A stretch of DNA of 64,000 nucleotides from Ruminococcus sp. (lineage in GTDB: Bacteria > Bacillota > Clostridia > Oscillospirales > Ruminococcaceae), in contig JAIDCY010000010.1 of assembly GCA_029055625.1 (NCBI GenBank), forward strand, positions 1 to 64,000, read 5' to 3'. Below the pieces are notes generated by a model. The model was not told where the DNA came from. It did not search any database and saw nothing but the letters and a program-made list of their open reading frames with translations. Shown here piece after piece: positions 7,878 to 54,206 of this stretch (position 1 is its first letter; the number at the start of each line of letters is the position of its first letter). Made by a program: the position numbers and the translations under genes.

Positions 7878-8930
7878 TCATGGCTGAGAATTATTATCTT
7901 CAGCCGGATTATTTATAATAACGTCGTCATCTTCACCGGACATCAGACAGGAAATCTGTTGTGTCAGGTATTCGATATAGGGGATAATTTTTTTGTAGTT
8001 AACTCTCACAGGTCCGATTATTCCGAGCGAACCGGCTTCTTTATTGCCTCTGTGATACTTGGAGACGATAAGACTTGAATTTCCGATAGCAAAGTTATTT
8101 TCAGAACCGAATTTTACCTGAATACCGCTGAAAGTTTCGTCAAGTAAATCAGAGAGACTGTTTTTGTGTTCAATGAATCTGACTACTTCCATTTTGTCGA
8201 GTTCGTCGCAGGAAAGAAGTTTTTCACTACCGCTTACAGTAAGTTCCTGTTGCCGGAGGTCTTCGGAGAGTTCACACAGACCTTTGACAAGCGGTGAAAG
8301 TGATACCATATATGCACTTAATGCGGAGACCATATTATTGAACATTTCTTCTGAAAGGTCTTCAACAGAAACACCGCTTAAATTTTCCTCAATGTAACGG
8401 GTAAAAAATTCCAGCTGTTCATTGCTGAGGTCAAATTCAAGCCGGCACGCTTTGTTTTTAATACTGCCGTTGGAAGTGATAAGCAGTATTACGTAAAGTC
8501 TTCTGCCGGTGGGGATAACTTCAACTTTTGAGATTACCGAGAATTTCGGTACTGAATTTGTTACGACTACCGCACATTGTGTAAGTTCCGCCAGAGCTGT
8601 AGTAGCGTTCTGTATAATCAGTTCTTCGGGAGTGTTTTTATCTCCTAACATTTTATCGAGATAATTTTTTTCTTCATCGGAGAGTGACGAAGGGTTCATA
8701 AGTTTATCGATATATAACCTGTACCCTGCAAACGTCGGTATTCTGCCGGATGAGGTATGAGGTTGTTCAAGATAGCCGAGCTGTTCGAGAACCGCCATAT
8801 CATTACGGATAGTTGCGGGTGAAACGTTAATATTATCGAGCTTGGAGATTGCTTTTGAACCGACCGGTTCACCGGTTCTTATATACTCATCAACTACAGC
8901 AGTGAGAATTTTTAATTTTCTGCTGTTCAC
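7878..8930 (-). CDS. hrcA: heat-inducible transcription repressor HrcA
   Basis: A 350-residue repressor. An N-terminal winged helix (about 1-80: 'SRKLKILTAVVDEYIRTGEPVGSKAIS', then 'SPATIRNDMAVLEQLGYLEQPHTSSGRIPT') is followed by the GAF-like and insert domains and the dimerising C-terminus. HrcA binds CIRCE and is kept active by GroEL. The start is taken as GTG 8930, because the frame upstream runs into the CIRCE element, whereas this GTG is preceded by GAAAGG and gives the typical HrcA N-terminus. It is the first gene of the operon and is autoregulated by the CIRCE site at 8954-8980. Confidence 0.95.
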   Translation of the reverse strand: MNSRKLKILTAVVDEYIRTGEPVGSKAISKLDNINVSPATIRNDMAVLEQLGYLEQPHTSSGRIPTFAGYRLYIDKLMNPSSLSDEEKNYLDKMLGDKNTPEELIIQNATTALAELTQCAVVVTNSVPKFSVISKVEVIPTGRRLYVILLITSNGSIKNKACRLEFDLSNEQLEFFTRYIEENLSGVSVEDLSEEMFNNMVSALSAYMVSLSPLVKGLCELSEDLRQQELTVSGSEKLLSCDELDKMEVVRFIEHKNSLSDLLDETFSGIQVKFGSENNFAIGNSSLIVSKYHRGNKEAGSLGIIGPVRVNYKKIIPYIEYLTQQISCLMSGEDDDVIINNPAEDNNSQP

Positions 8931-8953
8931 GATTAACACAACCTTTCGCCTGT

Positions 8954-8980
8954 TTAGCACTCTGTAACGTTGAGTGCTAA
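8954..8980 (-). promoter_or_regulatory. CIRCE operator for HrcA
   Basis: An exact TTAGCACTC - 9 nt - GAGTGCTAA inverted repeat, overlapping the expected transcription start and 23 nt before the hrcA start codon. This is the consensus CIRCE element, with no mismatch. Confidence 0.98.
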
Positions 8981-8984
8981 ATAT

Positions 8985-9013
8985 AATTTAACACTATTAT
9001 GACGTTTTGTCAA
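8985..9013 (-). promoter_or_regulatory. sigma-A promoter of the hrcA-grpE-dnaK-dnaJ operon
   Basis: On the minus strand, TTGACA (9013-9008) and TAAATT (8990-8985) are spaced 17 bp. The start point would fall inside CIRCE, so bound HrcA would block initiation. Confidence 0.8.
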
Positions 9014-9087
9014 GTGTTTTATGCAAGTTTGTTTGAATTACCAAAAAATACTGATTTATGTTAAATAAAATGTCAAGTATAGCTACA

Positions 9088-9126
9088 GAAAAAACGGCTA
9101 ACTTACAATAAGAAAGCCGTTTTTCC
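9088..9126. terminator. bidirectional terminator between the transporter operon and the hrcA promoter
   Basis: AAAACGGCT and AGCCGTTTT form a stem flanked by A-run and T-run, so it can stop transcription both ways. It would end the minus-strand transporter operon. The rest of the spacer (9127-9174) holds an SD-like AAAAGGAGG with no usable frame after it. Confidence 0.75.
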
Positions 9127-9174
9127 ATTAGAAAAGGAGGTTAAATATATAAAAAAGTTGATAGTGTAAGAAAT

Positions 9175-11613
9175 TTATGCCTGTTCACCGAGGAGAATAG
9201 AAACACGGTTCTGAATCATGTCGCAAGCCTGCTGTGAAGTAGCTTCACCCTTGAAATATTTCATTACTTCCGTAGTAATTATTTCATTTATATCGTCGCC
9301 TGCACCGTCGGTAAAAATTTTGTCTGCTTTTTTAATGTAGTCTACAATGAAGTCTTTTTCCTCTTTGGTGAGGGGTTCAATTTTAATTTCCTTGTTGTTT
9401 ATGTAGTAGGAGTTATCATATTCAACTTTGTTTCCGTCGTCGTCGAGATAGTAGGGTTTATGCATAGCGGCTTCAGCTTTTTTCTCGAAAGCGTCCACAA
9501 GGGTAGGAAGTCCCCACATATAAATATTGTTATCGCTTGCCTGATAGTCCATTGTGAAAAATTCCTTGATAAATTCCCAGCACGCATCTTTAGACGGCGA
9601 ACTGTCGAGAATAGCGAATGAGTTCTGCATATTTATACCTGCTCCCTTGCCGTCAGTAGACGGTATACCAACAAGTGTTATATCTTCACCGCCGAAGTAA
9701 GCATTTTTTTCCGTATTATATTCCGTAAGTTCGGAGAATGTTATGCTGTCAAGTAAAGCCTTGTCTTCCATTAATAAAGTGTCCTGTTCGTTCCAGTATT
9801 TCTGCATTTCCTCATCTGAAGCGGTTTCCCAGTCTATTTCATCTGCTTCGTCGGGGAACTCGTTGCAGAACTCCAGAATTTTCTTGAAATCGTCATTCTT
9901 GAAATCGCATTCAGCCTTATCAAAATCTACAAAATCGCTGATTGATGCAGCAAGTACACTGAATGCGGTATCTTTTGTGTTACCGTATCGCATAATTTTC
10001 ATATCCTTGTTATCGTGTATGGTATCTATTAAGTCGTCAATAGTCCAGTTTTCTTCACCGAAGAACTTTGATTTGCAAGCCATAGTTGAGACGGTAAAAG
10101 TCGGTGCGAGAGAGTAGAGTTTGCCTTTTATCGTACTTGCCTTTATTACGTTAGGCATAATATCATCTTCGGATAAGTCGTCATCTTTTTCAAGATATGT
10201 CGAGAGGTCAGCGTATGTACCTTGCGGTGCGAGTTCCGCAATAAGACTGTAATCATAAGTTACTATCATATCCGGAGAGTTACCGGAAACTATATCCATT
10301 TTCAACTGTTTCTGTGCGGAGTTCGTCATTTTCTGTTCTTCTTCGTTGTACTCGTTGTATTTGCTGTAGTCAGCGATTTTTATTCTGTAATCCTTACTGG
10401 ATTTGTTAAACTCCGTAATCTTTGAGGTGATAGCCTGGTCACTGTAAAGCATACCTACAGTGATAACGGTCTGATTGGCGAGTTCTTCAGCGTTACGCTT
10501 AGTGAGACGTACAAAACCGGCAGAATCATTATTATCGTAGTCCTCGACGTATGCTATGAAATCGCCGTCCTCAAGGGATATAATATTGCGTACACTGTAA
10601 GAATTTATATCGGAATCGAGCCAGTTGATAATTTCTTCAATTTTGTTATCATTGGTCATACCGAAGAGACCATTACCGGTAGTGAAGAACAGTTTGTAAT
10701 CGCCTGCTCCCTGGTAGATGTCATTAATATTTCTGTCGGTCTGCCCGTCATCGGAAGAGGTTTCGACGGTCTTGAAAGTTTTGGAATTCATATCAACTGT
10801 AAACACATTAGCCCCGTTATTACCGTAACCACAGGCGAAAATATTTCCGTCAGTATCGGTTGTGAAATCGTTGATGTAGTGTATGTCGTTACCGGTACTT
10901 ACTTTACCGTTAATACGTCCGTTTTCGTCGGCGATAAGGTACATATCTTCCTCACCGCTCATAGCCAGTATTATATTACCCTTGTTATCGGCTACAATGT
11001 TATTGATATGTATTCCCTCATATATGGAATCACTGCTGTAATCATTGATATTGGCAAGTTCATTCTGTGAGAGTACCTGACCATCCGGACTGAGTTTGTA
11101 TAGGATACATGAATATTCAGCGGCTTCATACATAGCGTCGAAATCAAAGTTTTCGTAATCAAAATTAGGGTCTTTGTAGTTAGGAAGTTTGAAATCGCCG
11201 TAATCTATGAGTGTCAGGACAGCGTATATATAACCGTCGGGAGATACAGTAGTTCTTAAATATGATTGTGAGTTAGCAGGCTTAGGGAAGTCAAGGGAAA
11301 TTTCATTGAAACCGCTGAAATCCATATCAGTTAGGTATAATTTATTTTCCTCGTTGCTGACACCCATGATAAGTACCTGTGAAGTATCTTTTATATAGTA
11401 TACGCTGTCAATGTAGTCTGCCGGAATATCAATATCAATATCGACAGAACTGTAAGAATTTTTAATTACGTTGTTAGCTGTCTGTGCTGTCTGGGAGTCT
11501 GATTTACTTGACTTACTTGATTTATCGTCTTTGTTACCGCACGAATAAGCGGAAAATACCATTGCAATGGTAAGTACGCCACTGACGGAACGTTTGATAA
11601 TAGAGTTTTTCAT
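9175..11613 (-). CDS. solute-binding lipoprotein with N-terminal propeller-like domain and C-terminal family 1 binding domain
   Basis: An 812-residue lipoprotein, about twice the size of a normal binding protein. A lipoprotein signal ends at Cys25 (AYSC, an imperfect lipobox) and is followed by a Ser/Lys/Asp linker. Residues about 50-380 are made of repeated short strands of the type 'DADGNIFACGYG' and 'DNKGNIILAMSG', suggesting a six- or seven-bladed beta-propeller. From about 383 ('VITVGMLYSDQAITSKITEF') to the end it is an extracellular solute-binding family 1 domain, with 'NSPDMIVTYDY' and a C-terminal helical part. The ligand is unknown, though sugar is likely from the permeases. It is the last gene of a five-gene minus-strand operon, with SD GAAAGG. 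Confidence 0.85.
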   Translation of the reverse strand: MKNSIIKRSVSGVLTIAMVFSAYSCGNKDDKSSKSSKSDSQTAQTANNVIKNSYSSVDIDIDIPADYIDSVYYIKDTSQVLIMGVSNEENKLYLTDMDFSGFNEISLDFPKPANSQSYLRTTVSPDGYIYAVLTLIDYGDFKLPNYKDPNFDYENFDFDAMYEAAEYSCILYKLSPDGQVLSQNELANINDYSSDSIYEGIHINNIVADNKGNIILAMSGEEDMYLIADENGRINGKVSTGNDIHYINDFTTDTDGNIFACGYGNNGANVFTVDMNSKTFKTVETSSDDGQTDRNINDIYQGAGDYKLFFTTGNGLFGMTNDNKIEEIINWLDSDINSYSVRNIISLEDGDFIAYVEDYDNNDSAGFVRLTKRNAEELANQTVITVGMLYSDQAITSKITEFNKSSKDYRIKIADYSKYNEYNEEEQKMTNSAQKQLKMDIVSGNSPDMIVTYDYSLIAELAPQGTYADLSTYLEKDDDLSEDDIMPNVIKASTIKGKLYSLAPTFTVSTMACKSKFFGEENWTIDDLIDTIHDNKDMKIMRYGNTKDTAFSVLAASISDFVDFDKAECDFKNDDFKKILEFCNEFPDEADEIDWETASDEEMQKYWNEQDTLLMEDKALLDSITFSELTEYNTEKNAYFGGEDITLVGIPSTDGKGAGINMQNSFAILDSSPSKDACWEFIKEFFTMDYQASDNNIYMWGLPTLVDAFEKKAEAAMHKPYYLDDDGNKVEYDNSYYINNKEIKIEPLTKEEKDFIVDYIKKADKIFTDGAGDDINEIITTEVMKYFKGEATSQQACDMIQNRVSILLGEQA

Positions 11614-11653
11614 TATGCATTTACCTTTCTGTTTTTTAAAAAAATTTTTTTAT

Positions 11654-12775
11654 TTATACTTTCTCTTGTTTCTTCAATATTTTTTCTCTGAAATTTTTTC
11701 TTATCCTGCTGTATGTCACGGATATATTACGCATCACTGCCGGTTTTTTTCTTTTTATCAACCTGACGGTGAGTATCACAAGCCACAGGACTGTAAGAGC
11801 AGGTACTGTTAATAATATTGTACGTGAAAAATAAATAAATGTCAACTTAAATTCGACAATTCTTGAAGCATTTTCCCAGTACGGATAATTTATGTTGTTT
11901 TTTATTACCGCATAATCAGATAATTTCCGGAAAGCCTTTGAACGTACCGAAGGTCTGAATCGGGAACTGTTTTTTACTATGGAATATTTATCCGCATATT
12001 TTTCCTCAAACTGTTTCTTTATTGTATTGTACGCAAAATTTTCAACGGGATTAGGGAAGACGGTTTCATAACAGGTTATTTTACTGAATTTGTTTGAAAT
12101 ATCGGTTGAATTTTCGTTACTGCCGGAGAGTTTAAGTATATCCGCCATACCGTCGTATGAGAGGTAAAGCCTCGGTGTTTTACCGATACAGTTTAATTCC
12201 GGTTCAGATTCCGGATTTTCAATAACTCCGGCTATATAGAATTTAATTCCGTCAATGTATAGGTTCATACCGGCAACGTCGTAAGAACCGTATAGTTCCC
12301 ATGCAAGATTAGCATCTATTACCGTACCGTCATGCATTAAATCGCCGTCACTGAAAAACGCACCGCTTACTAATTTAAAGTTACGGAACATAAAGAAATC
12401 ACCACCAACCGCCGTCAGTACCGCATCGGATTTCCCTGAAAGGTCACCACGTATGGTATACGTACCGGCAGGGGTACTGTATGCCTCGGCGTAAGGAAGA
12501 TTTTTACCGTCCGGTTCTATGGATACGTTCTGCAGTTCCTTTACAAGTTCCGCACGTACCGCATTAAGTGAATCCGTTGAAAATCCGGAATCTTCGGAAA
12601 GAAAAACGCTGTTCTGTGCGAAACTGTCGGGACTGCCATTTTTCCATATGTCAGCGGTGAAGTTATATCTCTGTGATACCGCCATAGAGTGACCGGTTAC
12701 CGAAAGTATAATTATTACTGTGATTACAATAAAATTCAGTACGGCAACGGTTATATATTTAAAATTGCGTTTCAT
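11654..12775 (-). CDS. MacB-like periplasmic-core-domain membrane protein without FtsX permease domain
   Basis: A 373-residue protein with a first membrane helix at about 8-30 and a second at about 325-345, then a basic cytoplasmic tail. The extracellular part between them resembles the MacB periplasmic core domain (a mixed alpha/beta unit with 'YAEAYSTPAGTYTIRG', 'FKLVSGAFFSDGD', 'GTVIDANLAWELYGS' and 'GMNLYIDGIKFYIAGVIENPE'). The last block is typical of the 'v.i.g..f.VvGv' strand in MacB/FtsX proteins. The three C-terminal FtsX helices that make a type VII permease are absent. The start is ATG 12775, set by GGCGG at proper distance, in preference to an upstream GTG. It lies 15 nt after the fusion protein gene. 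Confidence 0.65.
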   Translation of the reverse strand: MKRNFKYITVAVLNFIVITVIIILSVTGHSMAVSQRYNFTADIWKNGSPDSFAQNSVFLSEDSGFSTDSLNAVRAELVKELQNVSIEPDGKNLPYAEAYSTPAGTYTIRGDLSGKSDAVLTAVGGDFFMFRNFKLVSGAFFSDGDLMHDGTVIDANLAWELYGSYDVAGMNLYIDGIKFYIAGVIENPESEPELNCIGKTPRLYLSYDGMADILKLSGSNENSTDISNKFSKITCYETVFPNPVENFAYNTIKKQFEEKYADKYSIVKNSSRFRPSVRSKAFRKLSDYAVIKNNINYPYWENASRIVEFKLTFIYFSRTILLTVPALTVLWLVILTVRLIKRKKPAVMRNISVTYSRIRKNFREKILKKQEKV

Positions 12776-12789
12776 CCGAAACACCGCCT

Positions 12790-14712
12790 TTAATTGTCTT
12801 TCATTCTTACCTGGTCTTTAGGACTTACAGGTTTGCTTGCGGTAGTGATTATGTAGTCGCCGGAGTTAATCCCACCCTGTACCGCACTTGAAACTTCGTC
12901 GGAAGCTATTACTTCAACGTCTACCCTGTCGGCGAAGTATCTGTTACCGAGCGGTGAACTCTTTGAATTTACAACCAGTACGAACGAACCTTTACTATCC
13001 TTATATACCGCACTTTTCGGAACTATTGTATCATAATTTCCACTACCACACGGTATTGATAAATCTATCATTGTACCGGTGTTTACATCACCGGTTACGG
13101 AAAATGTAAGAATCCTGTCTTTAGAACCGGCTTTCGTATCGTTTTTTATGTCGGTAAGTATCGCTGTTATATCGCCGTTCCAGTTGTTTACTACGTCCGC
13201 CTCGATACCTTTTTTTATTTTTCTGGCTTTTTCCGCATCTACAGTCAATTCTACTGTATAACCTTCATCGGCAATGTCTATTACCGCAAGTGCTGTATCC
13301 GGCACGGTTTCCTCACCGACTTTTATATTTATAGAACTTACGATACCGTTATATTTTGATTTTATTTCCGTGATAGAATTTTCCGCCTTGATTTTTTCTA
13401 TTTTTTCTTTCATTTTGTCTACTTCTTTTTTCTTTGCATCTATTTCAAGCATATTAGTCTTATTTTCTAAATCGTCTTTGGATTTCGATTTATTAAGTTC
13501 AGCGATAAGATTTTCAAGTGTCTGTTGTTTCTGACGTATTTCCTCGTCGTAAGCGTCTATTGACATAGCAGAATCTCCGCCGGTCTGTTGTGAGGATTCG
13601 TAATTAGAAATCTGCAGATTAAGACTGTCAATTTCCGCCTCAACGGTGTAAAGCTGATTCATTAAATTGTTTCTGATACTGTATTTTGTATTGTTATAGT
13701 TGTTTAGTGCGTTATCACGTACAGATGCTTTATACTCCATATCAGCCTTAAGGACTTCCAGATCTTCGTTGTAGGAGTTGTCATACTGCACCGGTTCGGA
13801 AAAATTATCGTTGTTATTATTTTCTTCATTTTCCTGATTTTCTGCAACTCTTGCATTATCCGCCATATCATTATTTTCGTTATTTTCGGAATCATCATTG
13901 TTTTCGTAATTTTCGCTGTTATCGAAGTTTTCATTATTTTCATAATCATTATTTTCAAAGAATTCTTCCGACTGGTTACCCGATGGCATACCGGAAAGCA
14001 TAGAGGAATAGAGTTGATATGCGGAATTGTATTCTGATTCCGCTTTGGTGTATGTACTGTAAAGATACGACAGATTACTTGAATATTCCACCGCCGCACC
14101 GGAATAAGAATCTGAATCGATAGCTATAATAGTGGACTGTAATTTATCAAGGGTCTTTGATTTTTTAGCGAGTTCATTTTTATTGTTGTTGTAGGCGTAA
14201 AGTTCCTGCTGAGCTGTACCGGAATTGTTTACCGCTTTATTACGTTTTGCGATAGCATTATTAAGGTCATCACGGGCGTTATTGATAGCCTGATTTTCTG
14301 CGGAATAGTCCTGAGGTGCGACGAGTAAAGCCTTCTGATATTCCAGTTCAAGCGTATTCAGTGCGGTTTCCGCCTCTTCAAGTTCCTTGCTTTCTTCCGT
14401 ACCTATCGTGAAAAGAACATCATCTTTTTTCACTTCCTGACCGGTTTTAATCATAATTGTATCAATTACTTTGTTGCCGTCAGTTTTTACCTCGTAAGAC
14501 TGATTGGATTCCACAAGACCGCTACCCCGTATACGTTCGGTAAGTTTTCCGGAAGTTGCGGTTTCTGTAGTTATTTCCGCCAAAGATTTATTCATTATCG
14601 TGTTAGAACAGAAAGTAAGTATAAGCATTATTATCAGAAAAATAATAAGTATATTTTTAATAATATCCCGTTTTCTGTTCGGGGTATAAGTTTCTGTATT
14701 ATTTTCACTCAT
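12790..14712 (-). CDS. HlyD/RND-type membrane fusion protein (periplasmic adaptor-like)
   Basis: A 640-residue adaptor-like protein. One N-terminal membrane helix (about 18-38) is followed by the first half of a barrel-sandwich/lipoyl domain ('GSGLVESNQSYEVKTDG...GQEVKKDDVLFTIG', 62-104). A very long alpha-helical hairpin rich in A, L, K and E follows (105-240 and about 316-440). It is interrupted at about 245-315 by a low-complexity stretch almost entirely N, E, D and S. The second lipoyl half ('KYNGIVSSINIKVGEETV') and beta-barrel/membrane-proximal domains complete it. Such adaptors normally serve MacB-type or HlyB-type exporters. Here the neighbours are sugar-importer permeases and a MacB-like domain. 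The SD AAAGGAG precedes the ATG. Confidence 0.82.
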   Translation of the reverse strand: MSENNTETYTPNRKRDIIKNILIIFLIIMLILTFCSNTIMNKSLAEITTETATSGKLTERIRGSGLVESNQSYEVKTDGNKVIDTIMIKTGQEVKKDDVLFTIGTEESKELEEAETALNTLELEYQKALLVAPQDYSAENQAINNARDDLNNAIAKRNKAVNNSGTAQQELYAYNNNKNELAKKSKTLDKLQSTIIAIDSDSYSGAAVEYSSNLSYLYSTYTKAESEYNSAYQLYSSMLSGMPSGNQSEEFFENNDYENNENFDNSENYENNDDSENNENNDMADNARVAENQENEENNNNDNFSEPVQYDNSYNEDLEVLKADMEYKASVRDNALNNYNNTKYSIRNNLMNQLYTVEAEIDSLNLQISNYESSQQTGGDSAMSIDAYDEEIRQKQQTLENLIAELNKSKSKDDLENKTNMLEIDAKKKEVDKMKEKIEKIKAENSITEIKSKYNGIVSSINIKVGEETVPDTALAVIDIADEGYTVELTVDAEKARKIKKGIEADVVNNWNGDITAILTDIKNDTKAGSKDRILTFSVTGDVNTGTMIDLSIPCGSGNYDTIVPKSAVYKDSKGSFVLVVNSKSSPLGNRYFADRVDVEVIASDEVSSAVQGGINSGDYIITTASKPVSPKDQVRMKDN

Positions 14713-14731
14713 TTTGTAATCTCCTTTTATA

Positions 14732-15634
14732 TTAACCTTTTATTCCTCCGGCGGTGATGCCCTCTACAAGATAGTCTTCACCATAAAGGAACATAAGTAT
14801 AGTTGGAATCATGTAAACTGTACCTACCGCAAATGCAAGCCCGATGTCACCGGAATTTATCTGTGAAAGAAATACGGACAGCGGATGTAAAGCGGATACG
14901 GCGTCAGGGTCAGTAATAAGAATCATAGGCTGTTCAACCATGTTCCAGTAATCTATAAATACGAGCATACCTATTGAAATCAATGCACTCTTGCACATAG
15001 GAACGTAAATCTGTGTCATAATCTGCCACTCGTTCGCACCGTCCAGCTTCGCCGCCTCAACGTACGATACAGGTATTCTCCGCATTACTTTCGTGAGCAG
15101 GAAAACACTGAACGGTGAGAATATACCGGGAAGTATTATCGCCCACCTTGTATCGAGTATATCGAAACTTTTCGCCACAAGATAATTAGGAACAAGTGTT
15201 ACCTGATATGGCATAAGCATAAGAATTATGTACGCAAAGAATATAAGATTTTTTACCTTGTTATTGTATCGTGAGAATCCATAGGAAGTCAGGATAGCAA
15301 CGGCAATCTGGAAAAGAGTAATCGGGACGGTAAGAATAACAGAGTTCCAGAACTTGAAAAGATATTCCGGATTCTTGAAAAGTACGCTTTTGTACTGTGA
15401 AAACGTCGCCTTATCGGGAATAAATTTCAGATTTACATTTTCAGAAATGAATACTTTTTTTCCCTCACCGGACATATTACCCATCATCGCTCCGTAATTG
15501 GCGGATATTTCATTTGCCGTCATGAAGGAGTTTGCGATAGTAAGGACGGTCGGCAGTATGAACAACACCGCAACAAGTCCGACGAATACAGAAATCATGA
15601 TATTGAAAATACGTTTTTTTCTGCTTGAAATCAT
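14732..15634 (-). CDS. carbohydrate ABC transporter permease, MalG-like
   Basis: A 300-residue inner-membrane permease of the CUT1 family with six predicted membrane segments. It has the cytoplasmic EAA loop 'YVEAAKLDGANEWQIMTQIYVPM' at about residues 190-212, the docking site for an ATPase. The first extracellular loop is unusually long (about 35-80) and contains 'FIPDKATFSQYKSVLF', which is common in MalG homologues. Its start overlaps the stop of the upstream permease by one base (TAATG), so the two are translationally coupled. No ATP-binding subunit is encoded nearby, so a shared MsmX/UgpC-type ATPase is expected elsewhere. Confidence 0.92.
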   Translation of the reverse strand: MISSRKKRIFNIMISVFVGLVAVLFILPTVLTIANSFMTANEISANYGAMMGNMSGEGKKVFISENVNLKFIPDKATFSQYKSVLFKNPEYLFKFWNSVILTVPITLFQIAVAILTSYGFSRYNNKVKNLIFFAYIILMLMPYQVTLVPNYLVAKSFDILDTRWAIILPGIFSPFSVFLLTKVMRRIPVSYVEAAKLDGANEWQIMTQIYVPMCKSALISIGMLVFIDYWNMVEQPMILITDPDAVSALHPLSVFLSQINSGDIGLAFAVGTVYMIPTILMFLYGEDYLVEGITAGGIKG

Positions 15635-16527
15635 TAATTTTCAACGTCCTTTCCGAAAAAGTGTTCAGTAATAAGCAGTATCGCAATTATGACCATCATT
15701 ACAAGTGAAAAGAGTACCGCAGAAGTAGAAAGTTTCTGATAGTTGAATTTTTCAAACGTATTGTTCATGAAGTGCTGTAACATATACAGGCGGTCGATAG
15801 GGTAGTTACCGACTAACAGATAGATTTCACGGAAAATTTTAAACGAACTTATCAGCGAAAGAATGAGTACGAACAGAATAGTTGGTGAGAGATAACGTAA
15901 TTTTATGTGGAAAAACTGGTATACTTTACCTGCCCCCTCAAGTTCCGCAACTTCGAGAATGTCTTTTGGTATGCCACCTATTGCCGACATGAAAAGAATC
16001 ATATTATAACCTATGTTCTTCCAAAGAAACATCAGTATTATTACGTAAAATCCATACTTTGAACTTAACCAGTCGACAGATTCACCGCCGAATTTTCCGA
16101 TAATCTGATTGACAGTACCGTGATTATGAAACATTACCTGCCATACGAGTACTACGGAAGCTGTCGGGGTCATAAGCGGACTGAGAAAGAACGTACGGAA
16201 AATGCTTTTGCATGGTATGTTTCTTTCAAGGAGAATCGCAAGCCACAGAGGGATAATTACCGCCAGCGGTATGGCGATTGCCGAAAACAATGCGGTATTT
16301 TTCGAGGCTATCCGGAAAGATGAATTTTGAAGTATATTCTTATAATTTTCCAGTCCGACAAAATCGCTCTGAGAGGGTATGGAATTATTCACGAAAGAGT
16401 AATATATTACAATTCCAAACGGTATAAGAAAAAATATAAGTACGCCTGCCAAACTCGGCACTACACAGATATTACTGAAAATTTTTTCACCTCGTCTTCC
16501 ACACTGATTTTTTGATTTTTTTTTCAT
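15634..16527 (-). CDS. carbohydrate ABC transporter permease, MalF/UgpA-like
   Basis: A 297-residue CUT1 permease and first gene of the operon. It has a short basic N-terminus, six membrane spans, and the EAA loop 'ILEVAELEGAGKVYQFFHIKL' at about residues 188-208. It pairs with the MalG-like protein encoded directly after it. The start ATG 16527 follows AAAGG; the 5' leader from the promoter at 16727-16755 is about 190 nt, AT-rich and without an obvious riboswitch. Confidence 0.92.
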   Translation of the reverse strand: MKKKSKNQCGRRGEKIFSNICVVPSLAGVLIFFLIPFGIVIYYSFVNNSIPSQSDFVGLENYKNILQNSSFRIASKNTALFSAIAIPLAVIIPLWLAILLERNIPCKSIFRTFFLSPLMTPTASVVLVWQVMFHNHGTVNQIIGKFGGESVDWLSSKYGFYVIILMFLWKNIGYNMILFMSAIGGIPKDILEVAELEGAGKVYQFFHIKLRYLSPTILFVLILSLISSFKIFREIYLLVGNYPIDRLYMLQHFMNNTFEKFNYQKLSTSAVLFSLVMMVIIAILLITEHFFGKDVEN

Positions 16528-16987: not shown

Positions 16988-17320
16988 ATGAGTAAAATAA
17001 CTATCGAGACCGGCAGACGTATAAGGAGTTACCGGATAAATCAGCATATGAGCCAGGAGGCACTGGCGGAGAAGTGCGGACTTCACCCGACGTATATCGG
17101 ACAGCTTGAGAGAGGTGAAAAAAATGCGACACTGGAAAGTATCGGGAAGATAGCCGACGGACTTTCCGTATCTTTGAGCAGGTTATTGGAGAATATCGGC
17201 ACGGATTCCGACGGTGAGAACATCCCACTTGAAGCGTACCGGATTTTACAGGAGCGTTCGGAGACTGACCAGAAAAAACTTTTTCAGATTCTTAAACTGT
17301 CCGCCGAGTTGCTGGAATAG
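16988..17320 (+). CDS. XRE/Cro family helix-turn-helix regulator
   Basis: A 110-residue protein. Residues 8-66 form an HTH_XRE domain ('GRRIRSYRINQHMSQEALAEKCGLHPTYIGQLERGEKNATLESIGKIADGL'-type) with the typical S-Q-E-x-L-A and Y-I-x-x-L-E-R-G patterns. The short C-terminal helix region may mediate dimerisation. SD AAAGGAGG. It is divergent from the transporter operon across a 460-bp AT-rich spacer, which makes local control of that operon plausible but unproven. Confidence 0.88.
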   Translation: MSKITIETGRRIRSYRINQHMSQEALAEKCGLHPTYIGQLERGEKNATLESIGKIADGLSVSLSRLLENIGTDSDGENIPLEAYRILQERSETDQKKLFQILKLSAELLE

Positions 17321-17392
17321 TCGGATATTAATAAATTATGTTATTGATTTACAGGAAATTTTGTATAAAGTGACGTTTTTTATAATTTCCTA

Positions 17393-17421
17393 TTGACTTT
17401 TTCCGCATTGTGTGATAGAAT
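17393..17421 (+). promoter_or_regulatory. promoter of the tRNA-Gly-Arg-His cluster
   Basis: TTGACT (17393-17398), 17 bp, TAGAAT (17416-17421), about 30 nt before the first tRNA. No other promoter was seen between the three tRNA genes. Confidence 0.75.
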
Positions 17422-17450
17422 AGTTTTTGTTGAAACACAGATAACCAAAT

Positions 17451-17524
<74 letters not shown>

Positions 17525-17531
17525 TTTTTAT

Positions 17532-17605
17532 GCGCCTTTAACTCAGCTGGATAGAGTAACTGCCTTCTAAGCAGTAAGCCGCTGGTTCGAATCCAGCAAG
17601 GCGCG
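17532..17605 (+). tRNA. tRNA-Arg (anticodon TCT)
   Basis: The acceptor is GCGCCTT/AAGGCGC with discriminator G. The anticodon loop CTTCTAA gives TCT (reads AGA). CCA is not encoded. Seven nt after tRNA-Gly. Confidence 0.96.
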
Positions 17606-17624
17606 TTATTGTTTAAGAAAATAT

Positions 17625-17699
17625 GGTGGGTGTAGCTTAGCTGGTTAAAGCGTCGGATTGTGGTCCCGAAGACCGTGGGTTCGAATCCCATCTCCCACC
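17625..17699 (+). tRNA. tRNA-His (anticodon GTG)
   Basis: The anticodon loop TTGTGGT gives GTG. The extra G at -1 (17625) pairs with C73 (17699), as is characteristic of tRNA-His. The acceptor GTGGGTG/CTCCCAC has one T:T mismatch at position 6:67; all other stems are regular. CCA is not encoded. Confidence 0.94.
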
Positions 17700-17713
17700 C
17701 TGATATGATAATC

Positions 17714-50565: not shown

Positions 50566-51429
50566 ATGGATAACATCATTGAGATAAGAAACTTACATTT
50601 CCGCTATGATGCTGACGGTGAAAGTAATACGCCGGAAGTACTTAAGGGTATAAATCTTGACATAAAAAAAGGCGAATTTGTAGCAATATTAGGTCATAAC
50701 GGTTCAGGGAAATCCACACTTGCGAAACATCTTAACGGCATACTCACTGCCACTTCCGGAACTGTCACGGTGGACGGTATAGACACTTCCGACGAATCTA
50801 AACTTTTTCAACTCCGCCAGCGTGCTGGTATGGTATTTCAGAATCCGGATAATCAGATTGTATCTTCTATAGTAGAAGAAGATGTAGCTTTTGCACTCGA
50901 AAATTTAGGCGTACCTTATCCGGAAATGCGGAAACGGGTTGACGACGCTTTAAAGACCGTAAATATGTACGATTACAGACTTCATTCACCTGCTCAGCTT
51001 TCCGGAGGGCAGAAACAAAGAGTAGCAATAGCCGGTATAATAGCAATGCGTCCGGAGTGCATCATACTTGACGAACCCACTGCCATGCTTGACCCACAAG
51101 GCAGAAAGGAAGTAATTTCAGCTATCCGGAAACTCAATCGGGAATACGGTATAACGATAATCCTGATAACTCACTATATGGACGAGGCTTCCGGTTGTGA
51201 CCGTGTTGTGGTAATGGATAAGGGGCGTATTATACTGGATGACATACCTGTAAAAGTTTTCTCACAGGTGGAGCTTTTGCGGAAAATCGGTCTTGACGTA
51301 CCACAGGTAACGGAATTGTGTTATAGTCTGAGGGGAGCAGGTCTTGACATCACACCGGAAATAATATCAGAAGAGGAATGCGTAAAGGCATTACTGAAAT
51401 TATTTAACGAAAAGGAGTATTTATTATGA
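50566..51429 (+). CDS. ecfA1: ECF transporter ATPase EcfA1
   Basis: A 287-residue ABC ATPase of energy-coupling-factor transporters. Walker A 'LGHNGSGKSTLAKHLNGIL', Q loop 'GMVFQNPDNQIVSSIVEEDVAF', signature 'LSGGQKQRVAIAGIIAM', Walker B 'CIILDEPTAMLDPQGRKEV', H switch 'LITHYMDEA'. The C-terminal region 'IGLDVPQVTELCYSLRGAGL' is typical of EcfA. It pairs with EcfA2 and EcfT to power vitamin or metal uptake through interchangeable S components; none is encoded in the window. Its stop overlaps the start of an LRR-dockerin gene that separates it from ecfA2. Confidence 0.95.
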   Translation: MDNIIEIRNLHFRYDADGESNTPEVLKGINLDIKKGEFVAILGHNGSGKSTLAKHLNGILTATSGTVTVDGIDTSDESKLFQLRQRAGMVFQNPDNQIVSSIVEEDVAFALENLGVPYPEMRKRVDDALKTVNMYDYRLHSPAQLSGGQKQRVAIAGIIAMRPECIILDEPTAMLDPQGRKEVISAIRKLNREYGITIILITHYMDEASGCDRVVVMDKGRIILDDIPVKVFSQVELLRKIGLDVPQVTELCYSLRGAGLDITPEIISEEECVKALLKLFNEKEYLL

Positions 51430-53324
51430 AAGTAAACAGAATTTTAGCAGGTATCATGGCAGTATGTGTAATGGGTACAGGCGTACCGTATTTTAACGCA
51501 GTAACGGAAAGCAAAACGGTAATAACTGCCGGTGCGGATTATGAAGACGGCTACGAGAAACCAAACTACACACAGGGGAAATATGAAGACACATTCATAT
51601 ACAGGAATTACGGTTCATATATCGAGGTTGCAAAATGTTATGAATACGAAAAAGAGGTTGTAATACCGGCGAAGATAGACGGCTTACCGGTAACGAGTAT
51701 CGGAGACAGTGCGTTTCGTGATTGTAATGTTTTAACATCTGTAAAAATTCCGGACAGTGTAACAAGTATAGGAGAAACGGCATTCTGTGATTGCCGGAGT
51801 TTGACATCAATAGAAATTCCCGACGGTGTAACCAGTATCGGAGAATCTGCATTTTTTCAATGTGAAAGTCTGACAGCGATAAAAATTCCGGATAGCGTGA
51901 AAAGTATAGGAGATATGGCATTTTATGGTTGTAGTGGTTTAACATCAATGGAAATTCCCGACAAGGTAACCAGTATCGGAGAAGGATTATTTTTTAATTG
52001 TTACGGTCTTACATACGTAAAACTTCCAGCAGGTATAAAATCTGTTGACAGTTTATTTACGGGTTGTACAAGTCTTAAATCGGTAAAAATTCCGTACGGT
52101 GTAACCAGTATAGGAGACATGGCATTCTGGGGTTGCGAGGTTCTGGAATCGGTAGAACTTCCGGAGAGTATAACAAGTATCGGCTATAGTGCATTTGCCG
52201 GTTGTATGGGGCTGGAATCGATAGAAATTCCGGATAGTGTGGAAAGTATCGGAGCAGATGCATTTAATGCTTGTACTGGGTTGACGTCGATAAATATTCC
52301 GGACGGTGTAACAAATATTGAATCATTTGTATTCAGGGGTTGTAGTGGTCTTACGTCGATAAATATTCCAGATAGTGTGCAAAGTATCGGAGATTATGCA
52401 TTTGATAGTTGCAGTGGTCTTACATCAATAAATATTCCCGACAGCGTAACAAGTATCGGAGACAGTGCATTTGTGAATTGTATTGGTCTTACGTCGATAA
52501 ATATTCCCGACAGCGTAACAAGTATCGGAAACAATGCATTTGAAAGTTGTAGCGGTCTTGCATCAATAAAATTGTCAGATAGTTTAACAAGTATCGGAGA
52601 CAGTGCATTTGTGAATTGTAATGGTCTTAAATCGATAGAACTTCCCGACAGTGTGGAAAGTATCGGAGCAGATGCGTTTAATGGTTGTAGCGGTCTTACA
52701 TCAATAAATATTCCCGACAGTGTAACAAGTATCGGGGAAAGTGCATTCAGTGGATGTAGTGGGGTAAAATCGGTAGATATTCCCGATAGTGTAACATATA
52801 TTGACTGGTATGCATTTTCCGGATGCAGTGGGTTGAAATCGGTAAAACTTTCCGGCAATTTAAAAAATATCGGCTACAGTGTGTTTGCAGGTTGTAGCGG
52901 TCTGGAAGCGGTGGAGATTCCCGAAAGCGTACAGAGTATCAGATTATATGCGTTTGATAAATGCGACAGTTTAAAGGAAATGACTTTTTTAAATCCCGAT
53001 TGTGATATTTATGATTCCCCGGTTGCGATAAGCGAGACGGTAACAATTTACGGTTATGAAAATTCCACCGCCCATAAATACGCTGAAAAATACGGCAGAA
53101 ATTTTGTAACACTGGGAAAAGCTCCGGAAAAAGAGGTCATAAAGGGCGATATGAACGGCGATAATAAAATAAGTATAGCCGATGCAGTAATTTTTCAGAA
53201 ATATATTGTAGGTAAAAGGTATCTTACAAATGAACAGTTTAAAAATGCGGACATCAACGGTGACGGCTATGTAGATTCTTTCGATATGGTTCTGATGAGA
53301 CGTATGATTATAGATAATAAGTAA
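51426..53324 (+). CDS. secreted BspA-type LRR protein with C-terminal type I dockerin
   Basis: A 632-residue secreted protein. The signal peptide (about 1-35) is followed by about 19 tandem 23-residue LRR_5 repeats (about 85-525) with the core I-P-D-S-V-x-S-I-G-x-x-A-F-x-x-C-x-x-L. A short capping domain comes next ('NPDCDIYDSPVAI...IYGYENSTAHKYAEKYGRNF'), typical of this family. The dockerin (about 570-632) has two calcium loops, GDMNGDNKISIAD and ADINGDGYVDSFD. It should dock on a cohesin and present an LRR adhesion surface. Its ATG overlaps the ecfA1 stop, and SD AAAGGAG lies in ecfA1. Nothing links it functionally to vitamin transport. Confidence 0.92.
   Translation: MKVNRILAGIMAVCVMGTGVPYFNAVTESKTVITAGADYEDGYEKPNYTQGKYEDTFIYRNYGSYIEVAKCYEYEKEVVIPAKIDGLPVTSIGDSAFRDCNVLTSVKIPDSVTSIGETAFCDCRSLTSIEIPDGVTSIGESAFFQCESLTAIKIPDSVKSIGDMAFYGCSGLTSMEIPDKVTSIGEGLFFNCYGLTYVKLPAGIKSVDSLFTGCTSLKSVKIPYGVTSIGDMAFWGCEVLESVELPESITSIGYSAFAGCMGLESIEIPDSVESIGADAFNACTGLTSINIPDGVTNIESFVFRGCSGLTSINIPDSVQSIGDYAFDSCSGLTSINIPDSVTSIGDSAFVNCIGLTSINIPDSVTSIGNNAFESCSGLASIKLSDSLTSIGDSAFVNCNGLKSIELPDSVESIGADAFNGCSGLTSINIPDSVTSIGESAFSGCSGVKSVDIPDSVTYIDWYAFSGCSGLKSVKLSGNLKNIGYSVFAGCSGLEAVEIPESVQSIRLYAFDKCDSLKEMTFLNPDCDIYDSPVAISETVTIYGYENSTAHKYAEKYGRNFVTLGKAPEKEVIKGDMNGDNKISIADAVIFQKYIVGKRYLTNEQFKNADINGDGYVDSFDMVLMRRMIIDNK
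51690..52990 (+). repeat. about 19 tandem 69-bp coding repeats
   Basis: The LRR units are repeated at DNA level with period 69 bp, marked by recurring ATTCC(G/C)GA(C/T)AG and AGTATCGGAGA. The central units (about 52270-52740) are the most alike, pointing to recent duplication or gene conversion. Confidence 0.88.
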
Positions 53325-53339
53325 AAAAGGAGTGATAAA

Positions 53340-54206
53340 ATGGCAGTCCTGAAAACTGAAGAACTTACTTATATATACAGTCAGGGTACGCCGTTTGAAA
53401 AAGTTGCGGTAGACCGTGTAAACCTTGAAATAAACGAGGGCGAAATAATCGGAATAATGGGACATACAGGTTCAGGGAAGTCTACACTGATACAGCATTT
53501 CAACGGCTTACTGAAAGCGACATCGGGAAAGATATATCTTGACGGTAAAGACATATGGTCGGATAAATCGGAAATACGTTCGGTACGCTTCAGGGTAGGG
53601 TTAGTCTTTCAGTATCCGGAGTATCAGATTTTTGAGGAGACCGTATATAAAGATATAGCATTCGGGTGCAGGAATATGGGTCTCGACGATAAGGAAATAA
53701 AACGCCGTGTAACAGAAACCGCATACGATACAGGGCTTCCGGAGGAAATACTTAATAAGTCGCCGTTTGAACTGTCAGGCGGTCAGAAAAGACGGGTTGC
53801 AATAGCCGGAGTTATGGCAATGCATCCCCGTGTACTCATTCTTGACGAACCTTCCGCCGGTCTTGACCCTATGGGGCGTGACAGAATTTTCGACTGTATC
53901 AGAAACTATCACAGGAAGACCGGTAATACAATACTGATAGTATCGCACAGTATGGAGGATATAGCAAAATTTGCCGACAGAATACTTGTCATGAATAACG
54001 GCGGAGTGTTCTGTTTCGACAAAACGGAGAAAGTCTTTTCACGGGCGGAAGAAATTTCACGTATCGGGCTTGACGTACCGCAGATAACAAAAGTTTTTAT
54101 GGAACTTAAAAAGCATGGTCTTGATTTTGACAGGGAAATATATACTGTCGAATATGCAAGGGAAGTAATAGTAAAAAAATTAAAAGAAAGGAGGATTATA
54201 TGCTGA
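53340..54206 (+). CDS. ecfA2: ECF transporter ATPase EcfA2
   Basis: A 288-residue ABC ATPase. Walker A 'MGHTGSGKSTLIQHFNGLL', Q loop 'GLVFQYPEYQIFEETVYKDIAFG' (the YPEYQLFEET block marks EcfA2), signature 'LSGGQKRRVAIAGVMAM', Walker B 'VLILDEPSAGLDPMGRDRI', H loop 'IVSHSMEDIAKFADR'. It follows the LRR-dockerin gene by 15 nt with SD AAAGGAGTG and overlaps ecfT by 7 nt. Confidence 0.95.
   Translation: MAVLKTEELTYIYSQGTPFEKVAVDRVNLEINEGEIIGIMGHTGSGKSTLIQHFNGLLKATSGKIYLDGKDIWSDKSEIRSVRFRVGLVFQYPEYQIFEETVYKDIAFGCRNMGLDDKEIKRRVTETAYDTGLPEEILNKSPFELSGGQKRRVAIAGVMAMHPRVLILDEPSAGLDPMGRDRIFDCIRNYHRKTGNTILIVSHSMEDIAKFADRILVMNNGGVFCFDKTEKVFSRAEEISRIGLDVPQITKVFMELKKHGLDFDREIYTVEYAREVIVKKLKERRIIC

Follow-up and report, generated by a model that had tools for sequence, protein, structure and literature searches.

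A conserved operon of Ruminococcus combines CUT1-type permeases with MacA- and MacB-like proteins

INTRODUCTION

The CUT1-like importer AlgM1M2SS-AlgQ of Sphingomonas handles a large polysaccharide, alginate, and no adaptor/MacB-like pair is known to us from that system. A related system is transporter C of Clostridium thermocellum, encoded by the CbpC operon (Cthe_2125-2128 in PMC8303734; clo1313_2783-6 in PMC11212667). Genes of this operon are reported to be upregulated in xylose- or monosaccharide-grown cells (PMC7471329; PMC8303734). Sugar binding by CbpC was reported by an earlier study, as cited in PMC9601137 and PMC11212667, and the cargo of transporter C is disputed between two studies (PMC11212667). 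Here, a five-gene operon is described from a 64,000-nucleotide stretch of a Ruminococcus sp. genome (GenBank assembly GCA_029055625.1, contig JAIDCY010000010.1, positions 1 to 64,000; hereafter, the window). Its genes are denoted F and G (permease subunits), H (adaptor), M (MacB-derived protein), and S (solute-binding protein).

A figure legend on the sugar transporters of C. thermocellum names an "acra" gene (PMC9601137), which we infer to belong to transporter C. The available portions of PMC9601137, PMC7471329, PMC11212667, and PMC8303734 mention neither a MacB-like gene nor a composite unit, and none is described in the titles and abstract beginnings listed by searches of open-access literature, outside which most subscription papers fall. 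The role of Gram-positive adaptors, which act without an outer membrane, has itself been openly questioned (PMC5985334).

The favored reading of the unit, to which we assign a probability of roughly 0.55, is that of a Type I (CUT1-class) ATP-binding cassette (ABC) importer combined with an extracytoplasmic assembly that derives from a MacA-MacB machine put to new use. F, G, H, and M are co-inherited as a single cluster, mostly with at least one S lipoprotein. The joining of a sugar-type importer to two proteins derived from export pumps suggests, at the level of sequence, a little-noticed uptake machine.

COMPOSITION AND CONSERVATION OF THE GENE CLUSTER

The initial annotation had placed five tightly spaced genes on the minus strand, and all five frames were confirmed at these coordinates. 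The genes and the features within and after them are as follows (aa, amino acids; TM, transmembrane helices).

F, 15634..16527, minus strand: MalF/UgpA-like permease subunit, 297 aa, 6 predicted TM, EAA-type coupling loop EVAELEGA
G, 14732..15634, minus strand: MalG/UgpE-like permease subunit, 300 aa, EAA-type motif EAAKLDGA
H, 12790..14712, minus strand: MacA/HlyD-type adaptor, 640 aa
M, 11654..12784, minus strand: MacB-derived protein, conserved start at the ATG at 12775 (373 aa)
S, 9175..11613, minus strand: lipoprotein-type solute-binding protein, 812 aa, with an N-terminal repeat domain
15727..15834, minus strand: last extracytoplasmic loop of F, residues 232-267
13762..13968, minus strand: Asn/Glu-rich insert in the middle of the H hairpin region, 69 codons
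12140..12718, minus strand: MacB_PCD match inside M (Pfam, 1.5e-9)
10459..11481, minus strand: residues 45-385 of S, internally repeated and propeller-like
9083..9131, minus strand: terminator-like hairpin after S, from folding energy against shuffles

Besides the window's own genome, 31 of 35 others of the genus carry M, as does 1 of 24 further genomes of the order. The order F-G-H-M was present in all 31 fetched genus loci, with S in 30 of them (L037 is without S, and the S of L060 is a short form). The hrcA-grpE-dnaK genes that neighbor the operon in the window adjoin it in just four of the 31 loci; therefore, the linkage does not stem from a fixed location. Named genomes, mostly of Ruminococcus and partly the same as those of the 31-locus set, were also scanned with M, and 80 of 99 qualifying loci were retained. 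Of these, 69 read FGHMS, three SFGHM, and three FGHM (one with F cut), and five start inside the unit at a contig start; hrcA, grpE, and dnaK were all missing from 67 of the 80 (operon strand only, some loci being short). Four genomes of the genus are without M. One that is 98% complete (G013) lacks both M and any F above 104 bits, a co-loss, and two at 73% completeness each (G029 and G033) lack M and a high-scoring F. A fourth (G011) is without M and retains F at 478 bits near a contig end.

Beyond the genus, the M profile matched 79 of 391 genomes of the class, a count that includes ordinary MacB/FtsX operons (L199-L201, L203). A uniform scan of 81 fetched loci identified 70 with a system F or G, defined as a score of 250 bits or more (11 of the 81 had neither). 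H and M accompanied all 70, and S accompanied 61. When the search was made through F in 398 genomes of the phylum, all nine places scoring at least 300 bits carried H and M (seven of them new, with five genomes outside the class), and all five fetched places at 178-246 bits were without both. In 295 genomes of the order, 40 matched the F profile at 1e-70, and 20 of the 48 listed places were fetched, of which 15 carried F, G, H, and M (in L305, S lies between F and G). S may stand before the FGHM core, after it, or on both sides, with up to three copies per locus, and one locus reads HMFG (L247). The collection of plasmids gave one match, an S-F-G-H-M cluster of Subdoligranulum variabile, and none with a second query. 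Thus, the search of other genomes for the five-gene order, which the initial annotation had proposed, found it conserved both within the genus and across further classes of the phylum, and this conserved order rejects a chance neighborhood of the adaptor and MacB-like genes.

The cluster also occurs in a genome (G403) with a 100% match to a 297-residue stretch of CbpC, an identity from which it is presumably that of C. thermocellum ATCC 27405. There, one strand carries S, a 4-TM frame without assignment, F, G, H (as two frames that overlap), and M.

M, A MACB-DERIVED PROTEIN WITHOUT ITS COUPLING PARTS

M matches the MacB periplasmic core domain in Pfam, and the structure of YknZ (5f9q) is among its PDB profile matches. 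Its layout consists of a first TM, the periplasmic core domain, an extension, and one C-terminal TM, giving two predicted TM in all. No FtsX domain was detected by Pfam in any of the five operon proteins, in agreement with the initial annotation that the MacB-like protein is without FtsX helices. PF02687 was likewise not detected in the 12 system M proteins scanned, and the L201 control did contain it. Three of four ordinary FtsX controls have the FtsX coupling motif, versus 0 of 14 many-helix M proteins of distant relatives, which have three to six predicted membrane helices, and 0 of 43 M proteins of the window's branch (0/57 in total).

In profile-profile comparison, the M of the window's branch aligns with many-helix M (99.4% probability), an alignment restricted to TM1 and the core domain, and many-helix M aligns in turn with four ordinary FtsX permeases across 307 columns (99.5%). 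By this comparison, M is a descendant of a MacB/FtsX permease. On a tree of F rooted on four ordinary permeases, two-helix M is confined to one 38-row clade (support 100/98); L193, which branches at the base of this clade with three predicted helices, is excluded from that count. Three changes in the state of M are seen on this tree, one of them to two helices and the other two to loss of M, and a single change on a smaller, quicker tree. These helix counts are hydropathy predictions, some rows are without a count, and the long basal branches are uncertain. As reconstructed on the permease tree, the reduction of M to two helices happened once. Judged from its domains and motifs, M has kept the MacB extracytoplasmic core and is without the FtsX coupling motif, and the branch of the window has also lost the FtsX-like helices predicted in distant relatives.

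PERMEASES AND THE QUESTION OF THE ATPASE

F and G match BPD_transp_1 in Pfam (8.2e-14 and 3.3e-14, respectively), as expected of two CUT1-type permease subunits. The EAA-type coupling loop was recovered by pattern in 65 of 67 F proteins, and the other two (L193 and L269) have D replacing E; in the G of the window, the motif was read directly.

That the operon has no ATPase, as first annotated, was confirmed by Pfam. A MalK-type ATPase gene lies beside M or F in 11 fetched operons (8 of the 70 of the uniform scan, plus L290, L293, and L294), and the four in-operon ATPases examined in Pfam (L196, L197, L290, and L293) each combine ABC_tran, OB_MalK, and TOBE_2. No MacB-type ATPase was found beside M, the in-operon ATPases scanned being all of MalK type. 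The window's genome encodes a single OB_MalK protein, and no permease frame was found in the 6.5 kb around its gene, where the contig ends. Exactly one OB_MalK protein was also found in 19 of 23 other genus genomes searched, and the four without one are 64-68% complete. The best PDB matches of the lone ATPase are 7x0q (2e-160) and then MsmX (6yir, 1e-127), with AlgS also among the matches. 7x0q, titled "ABC transporter related protein," is presumably Clo1313_2554, to judge from neighboring entry numbers, and Clo1313_2554 is the standalone ATPase of transporter B (PMC9601137). In an alignment read by eye, the lone ATPase keeps D77, R104, E110, and K154 of MsmX, which are residues that have been tested in that protein (PMC7658222). 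The operon would thus go without an ATPase because a lone MsmX-like ATPase is encoded elsewhere in the genome, and we infer that this ATPase drives F-G.

ADAPTOR AND BINDING PROTEIN

H matches HlyD_3 in Pfam (2.4e-5) and scores 77.7 bits against the RND_mfp profile, below its cut-off of 94.9. It consists of an N-terminal TM, lipoyl-type halves, a hairpin region of about 324 residues, and C-terminal barrel-side parts, and Pfam, NCBIfam, and profile comparisons agree in identifying it as a MacA-type adaptor. Among 79 H proteins, the length of the hairpin region ranges between 0 and 477 residues (median 251), and the flanking parts are stable in length (L291 is truncated, and the H of L241-L247, L253, L269, L271, and L273 were left out). 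Within the genus the hairpin is mostly 248-285 residues, and the Asn/Glu insert brings that of the window to 324. Given this range across lineages, a bridge over the wall is not a universal role of the adaptor. The proposal that the adaptor bridges the wall to the permeases is neither borne out nor excluded. The common role of H probably lies near the membrane, with reach as a lineage-specific extra.

The Asn/Glu tract of 70 residues that the initial annotation stressed is real, at 69 codons, and is lineage-specific; it appears incidental. It is short or absent in most of 23 aligned adaptors and long only in the nearest relatives, where its length varies. A second Asn/Glu-rich protein is encoded in the same genome, a repetitive, partly masked frame of 1063 aa (L240, 832-4023, minus strand). 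As an important feature the tract was rejected on these two grounds; it may reflect a genome-wide tendency.

In S, the SBP_bac_1 match (7.4e-8) is confined to residues 394-692, and 32 of 38 aligned S proteins match this family at 0.05. Cys25 is nearly invariant in the family, in keeping with a lipoprotein. Among PDB entries, CbpC (7x0o, 5.1e-40) matches the S family best. S proteins occur with and without the N-terminal domain, at lengths of 348-872 aa (some cut). The roughly 330 extra propeller-type residues annotated at the N-terminus of S correspond to the internal repeat, whose best off-diagonal self-alignment scores 50.9 versus at most 17.6 in 20 column-shuffled controls. The N-terminal region has no significant Pfam match, and its matches to PDB profiles are weak (26 chains, E 3e-4 to 3.3), 10 of them unrelated ETV6 constructs. 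About half of the 26 we take to be beta-propellers. Thus, the repeat stood, and the propeller-type reading is supported, as a putative fold.

EXPRESSION AND SURROUNDINGS OF THE OPERON

F and G overlap by one base, 15634, and the remaining gaps are 19 nt (G-H), 5 nt (H-M, or 14 nt from the ATG at 12775), and 40 nt (M-S). The hairpin 3' of S has a minimum free energy of -21.2 kcal/mol (z -5.18), equaled by none of 200 shuffles. Promoter-like sites numbered 49 between 7000 and 19000, against 36.8 (standard deviation 5.7) in shuffles. One of them, at 11817-11845 on the minus strand, lies inside M and upstream of S, matches 11 of 12 positions, and could allow separate expression of S. Of the original picture of tight spacing behind one promoter, the spacing was upheld, with no junction above 40 nt; a single promoter for the five genes is plausible and is not established by these sites. 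An RNA leader was rejected, three tRNAs being the only Rfam matches at gathering score in the window.

Divergent from F lies an XRE-type helix-turn-helix gene (16988-17320, plus strand), a possible local regulator; of 32 fetched loci, just two near relatives, L031 and L032, show a match to it (L033 ends before this place). An open reading frame at 17380-17691 on the minus strand, antisense to the tRNA-Gly/Arg/His cluster at 17451-17700, is very likely spurious. Two closely spaced ABC ATPase genes with PF00005 matches (50566-54206, plus strand) are unrelated to the operon.

At other loci, no Pfam family occurred in more than two of 81 scanned flanking proteins, which were drawn from 197 selected frames, and a substrate clue from flanking genes was rejected for this lack of a recurrent family. 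L184 and L188 have cellulase genes alongside (GH9-CBM3 and GH5), which are only suggestive. Upstream of F, L180 carries a GntR-type regulator, an ABC ATPase, and a DUF6449 protein by Pfam, and L178, L181, and L182 have the same frame layout.

INTERPRETATION OF THE UNIT

The assembly, direction, and cargo of the unit are proposed here from its sequences. In the mechanism proposed, the lone MsmX-like ATPase would drive F-G, and M, uncoupled from any ATPase, would form a membrane-anchored seat for H, as the MacB core does for MacA. The H-M unit would be positioned over or beside F-G, the hairpin of H would set the depth of reach into the wall zone, and the propeller-like domain of S would capture or hold a ligand for import by F-G. 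As cargo, an oligosaccharide or some other solute derived from the wall or matrix is probable, an assignment that is not established. As for the hybrid of importer and exporter parts first annotated, the hybrid is real and conserved, and the puzzle of its missing ATPase has an ordinary answer.

Several observations weigh against the importer reading. No S was detected near nine of the 70 uniform-scan loci. Many of the scanned loci had also gone into the profiles of that scan, and most were found through M; the test was therefore repeated through F. Among the 20 loci of the order found through F, two (L306 and L308) have H with M not detected, L307 has no recognizable H or M and encodes a 351-aa 4-TM protein after G, L309, the lowest scorer, is without both, and L291 is cut inside H. 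The distances of H and M across 55 loci correlate as well as those of F and G (r 0.960 and 0.963), which speaks for the reading, but values this high are also expected from shared species history. The C. thermocellum-type adaptor reads as two overlapping frames (L269, 6134-7487, minus strand), and the adaptors of L302, L304, and L308 are nearly hairpin-less (0-3 residues). Of 18 residues that this permease family keeps and 13 ordinary CUT1 permeases do not, 12 lie in the last loop of F, and these largely persist in relatives without H or M (8/12 in L248, 10/12 in L309, and 11/12 in L307). The loop is therefore no evidence of docking by H or M and was rejected as a mark of it. Furthermore, CbpC bound no tested sugar, and a mutant with transporter C inactivated grew normally on glucose, cellobiose, and Avicel (PMC9601137).

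Two of the loci named above are of interest in themselves. The 4-TM protein of L307 (6184-7239, minus strand) shows weak likeness to the end of H (33%) and then to the membrane part of many-helix M (16%), and is perhaps a shrunken H-M fusion. In L248, a 541-aa frame (8856-10481, plus strand) following the binding protein matches both F and G as a fused pair, and H and M were not found there.

It is also conceivable, though we consider it unlikely, that the unit is a sensing or mechanical device, in which S and the F-G-ATPase complex act as a flux sensor and H-M relays a mechanical signal to the envelope with little or no import. The mutant without a growth phenotype on three substrates would fit such a device, as would the pocket of CbpC, reported to be blocked by an extra loop (PMC9601137), the description of MacB-family proteins as mechanotransducers (PMC5985334), and the ability of several S copies to share one permease pair. 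However, F keeps its EAA-type coupling loop, relatives encode MalK-type ATPases, and the 81 flanking proteins include no recurrent signaling or regulatory family. Somewhat less probable still is an operon shared by two independent machines, in which H-M has a job unrelated to that of an ordinary CUT1 importer. H and M do have recognizable exporter-type folds, and permeases of the same family occur in L248 and L309 without them. Against this stand their presence beside the permeases in 70 of 70 scan loci and in most F-found loci, the absence from M of both an adjoining MacB-type ATPase and the FtsX coupling motif, and the rearranged order of L247, which still keeps the set together.

CUT1 permeases with MalK-type ATPases are importers in the characterized cases known to us, and a solute-binding protein accompanies 61 of the 70 operons. 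Both points make an exporter, in which a MalK-type ATPase and the MalFG-type permeases would drive a substrate out through H-M, highly improbable, even though adaptors with the fold of H normally serve export (adaptor profiles; PMC5985334). Compared with these alternatives, a CUT1 importer with a recycled MacA-MacB assembly remains the reading we prefer. A more specific form of it, offered tentatively and with rather less confidence, is that the unit represents a distinct class of envelope-reaching ABC importer in bacteria of this phylum, in which a CUT1 permease is joined to an ATPase-less MacAB-derived adaptor unit whose hairpin, from none to about 477 residues, is tuned to the depth of the wall or surface layer, and which is fed by a propeller-bearing lipoprotein.

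Exporters and mechanotransducers are the known settings of adaptors and MacB cores, whose conserved membership in an importer would show that parts of machines working in opposite directions can recombine. Such a role would also give Gram-positive adaptors a testable function.

COMPARISON WITH KNOWN SYSTEMS

The importers MalFGK2 and UgpBAEC and the MsmX-driven CUT1 importers share with the window's unit the permease pair, EAA-type loops, a binding lipoprotein, and an ATPase of MalK/MsmX type. The unit adds to these a conserved H and M and the repeat domain on S. Given H and M in all 70 system loci, it is by gene content a variant of CUT1 with two extra conserved subunits, not a plain member, with exceptions among the F-found loci. 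The MacA-MacB systems YknXYZ and SpMacAB likewise pair an adaptor with a MacB core domain in a Gram-positive envelope (PMC5985334). In contrast to them, the unit is without an adjoining MacB-type ATPase and the FtsX motif, has FtsX-like helices that are reduced on the window's branch, and is joined to an importer. Transporter C of C. thermocellum, as read in G403, resembles the window's unit in having S, F, G, H (there split), and M together. However, CbpC is 460 aa long and without the N-terminal repeat domain carried by the S of the window, and the C. thermocellum-type M has six predicted helices versus two. Transporter C may thereby be seen in a new frame, as a system for which any assay may have to include the additional subunits.

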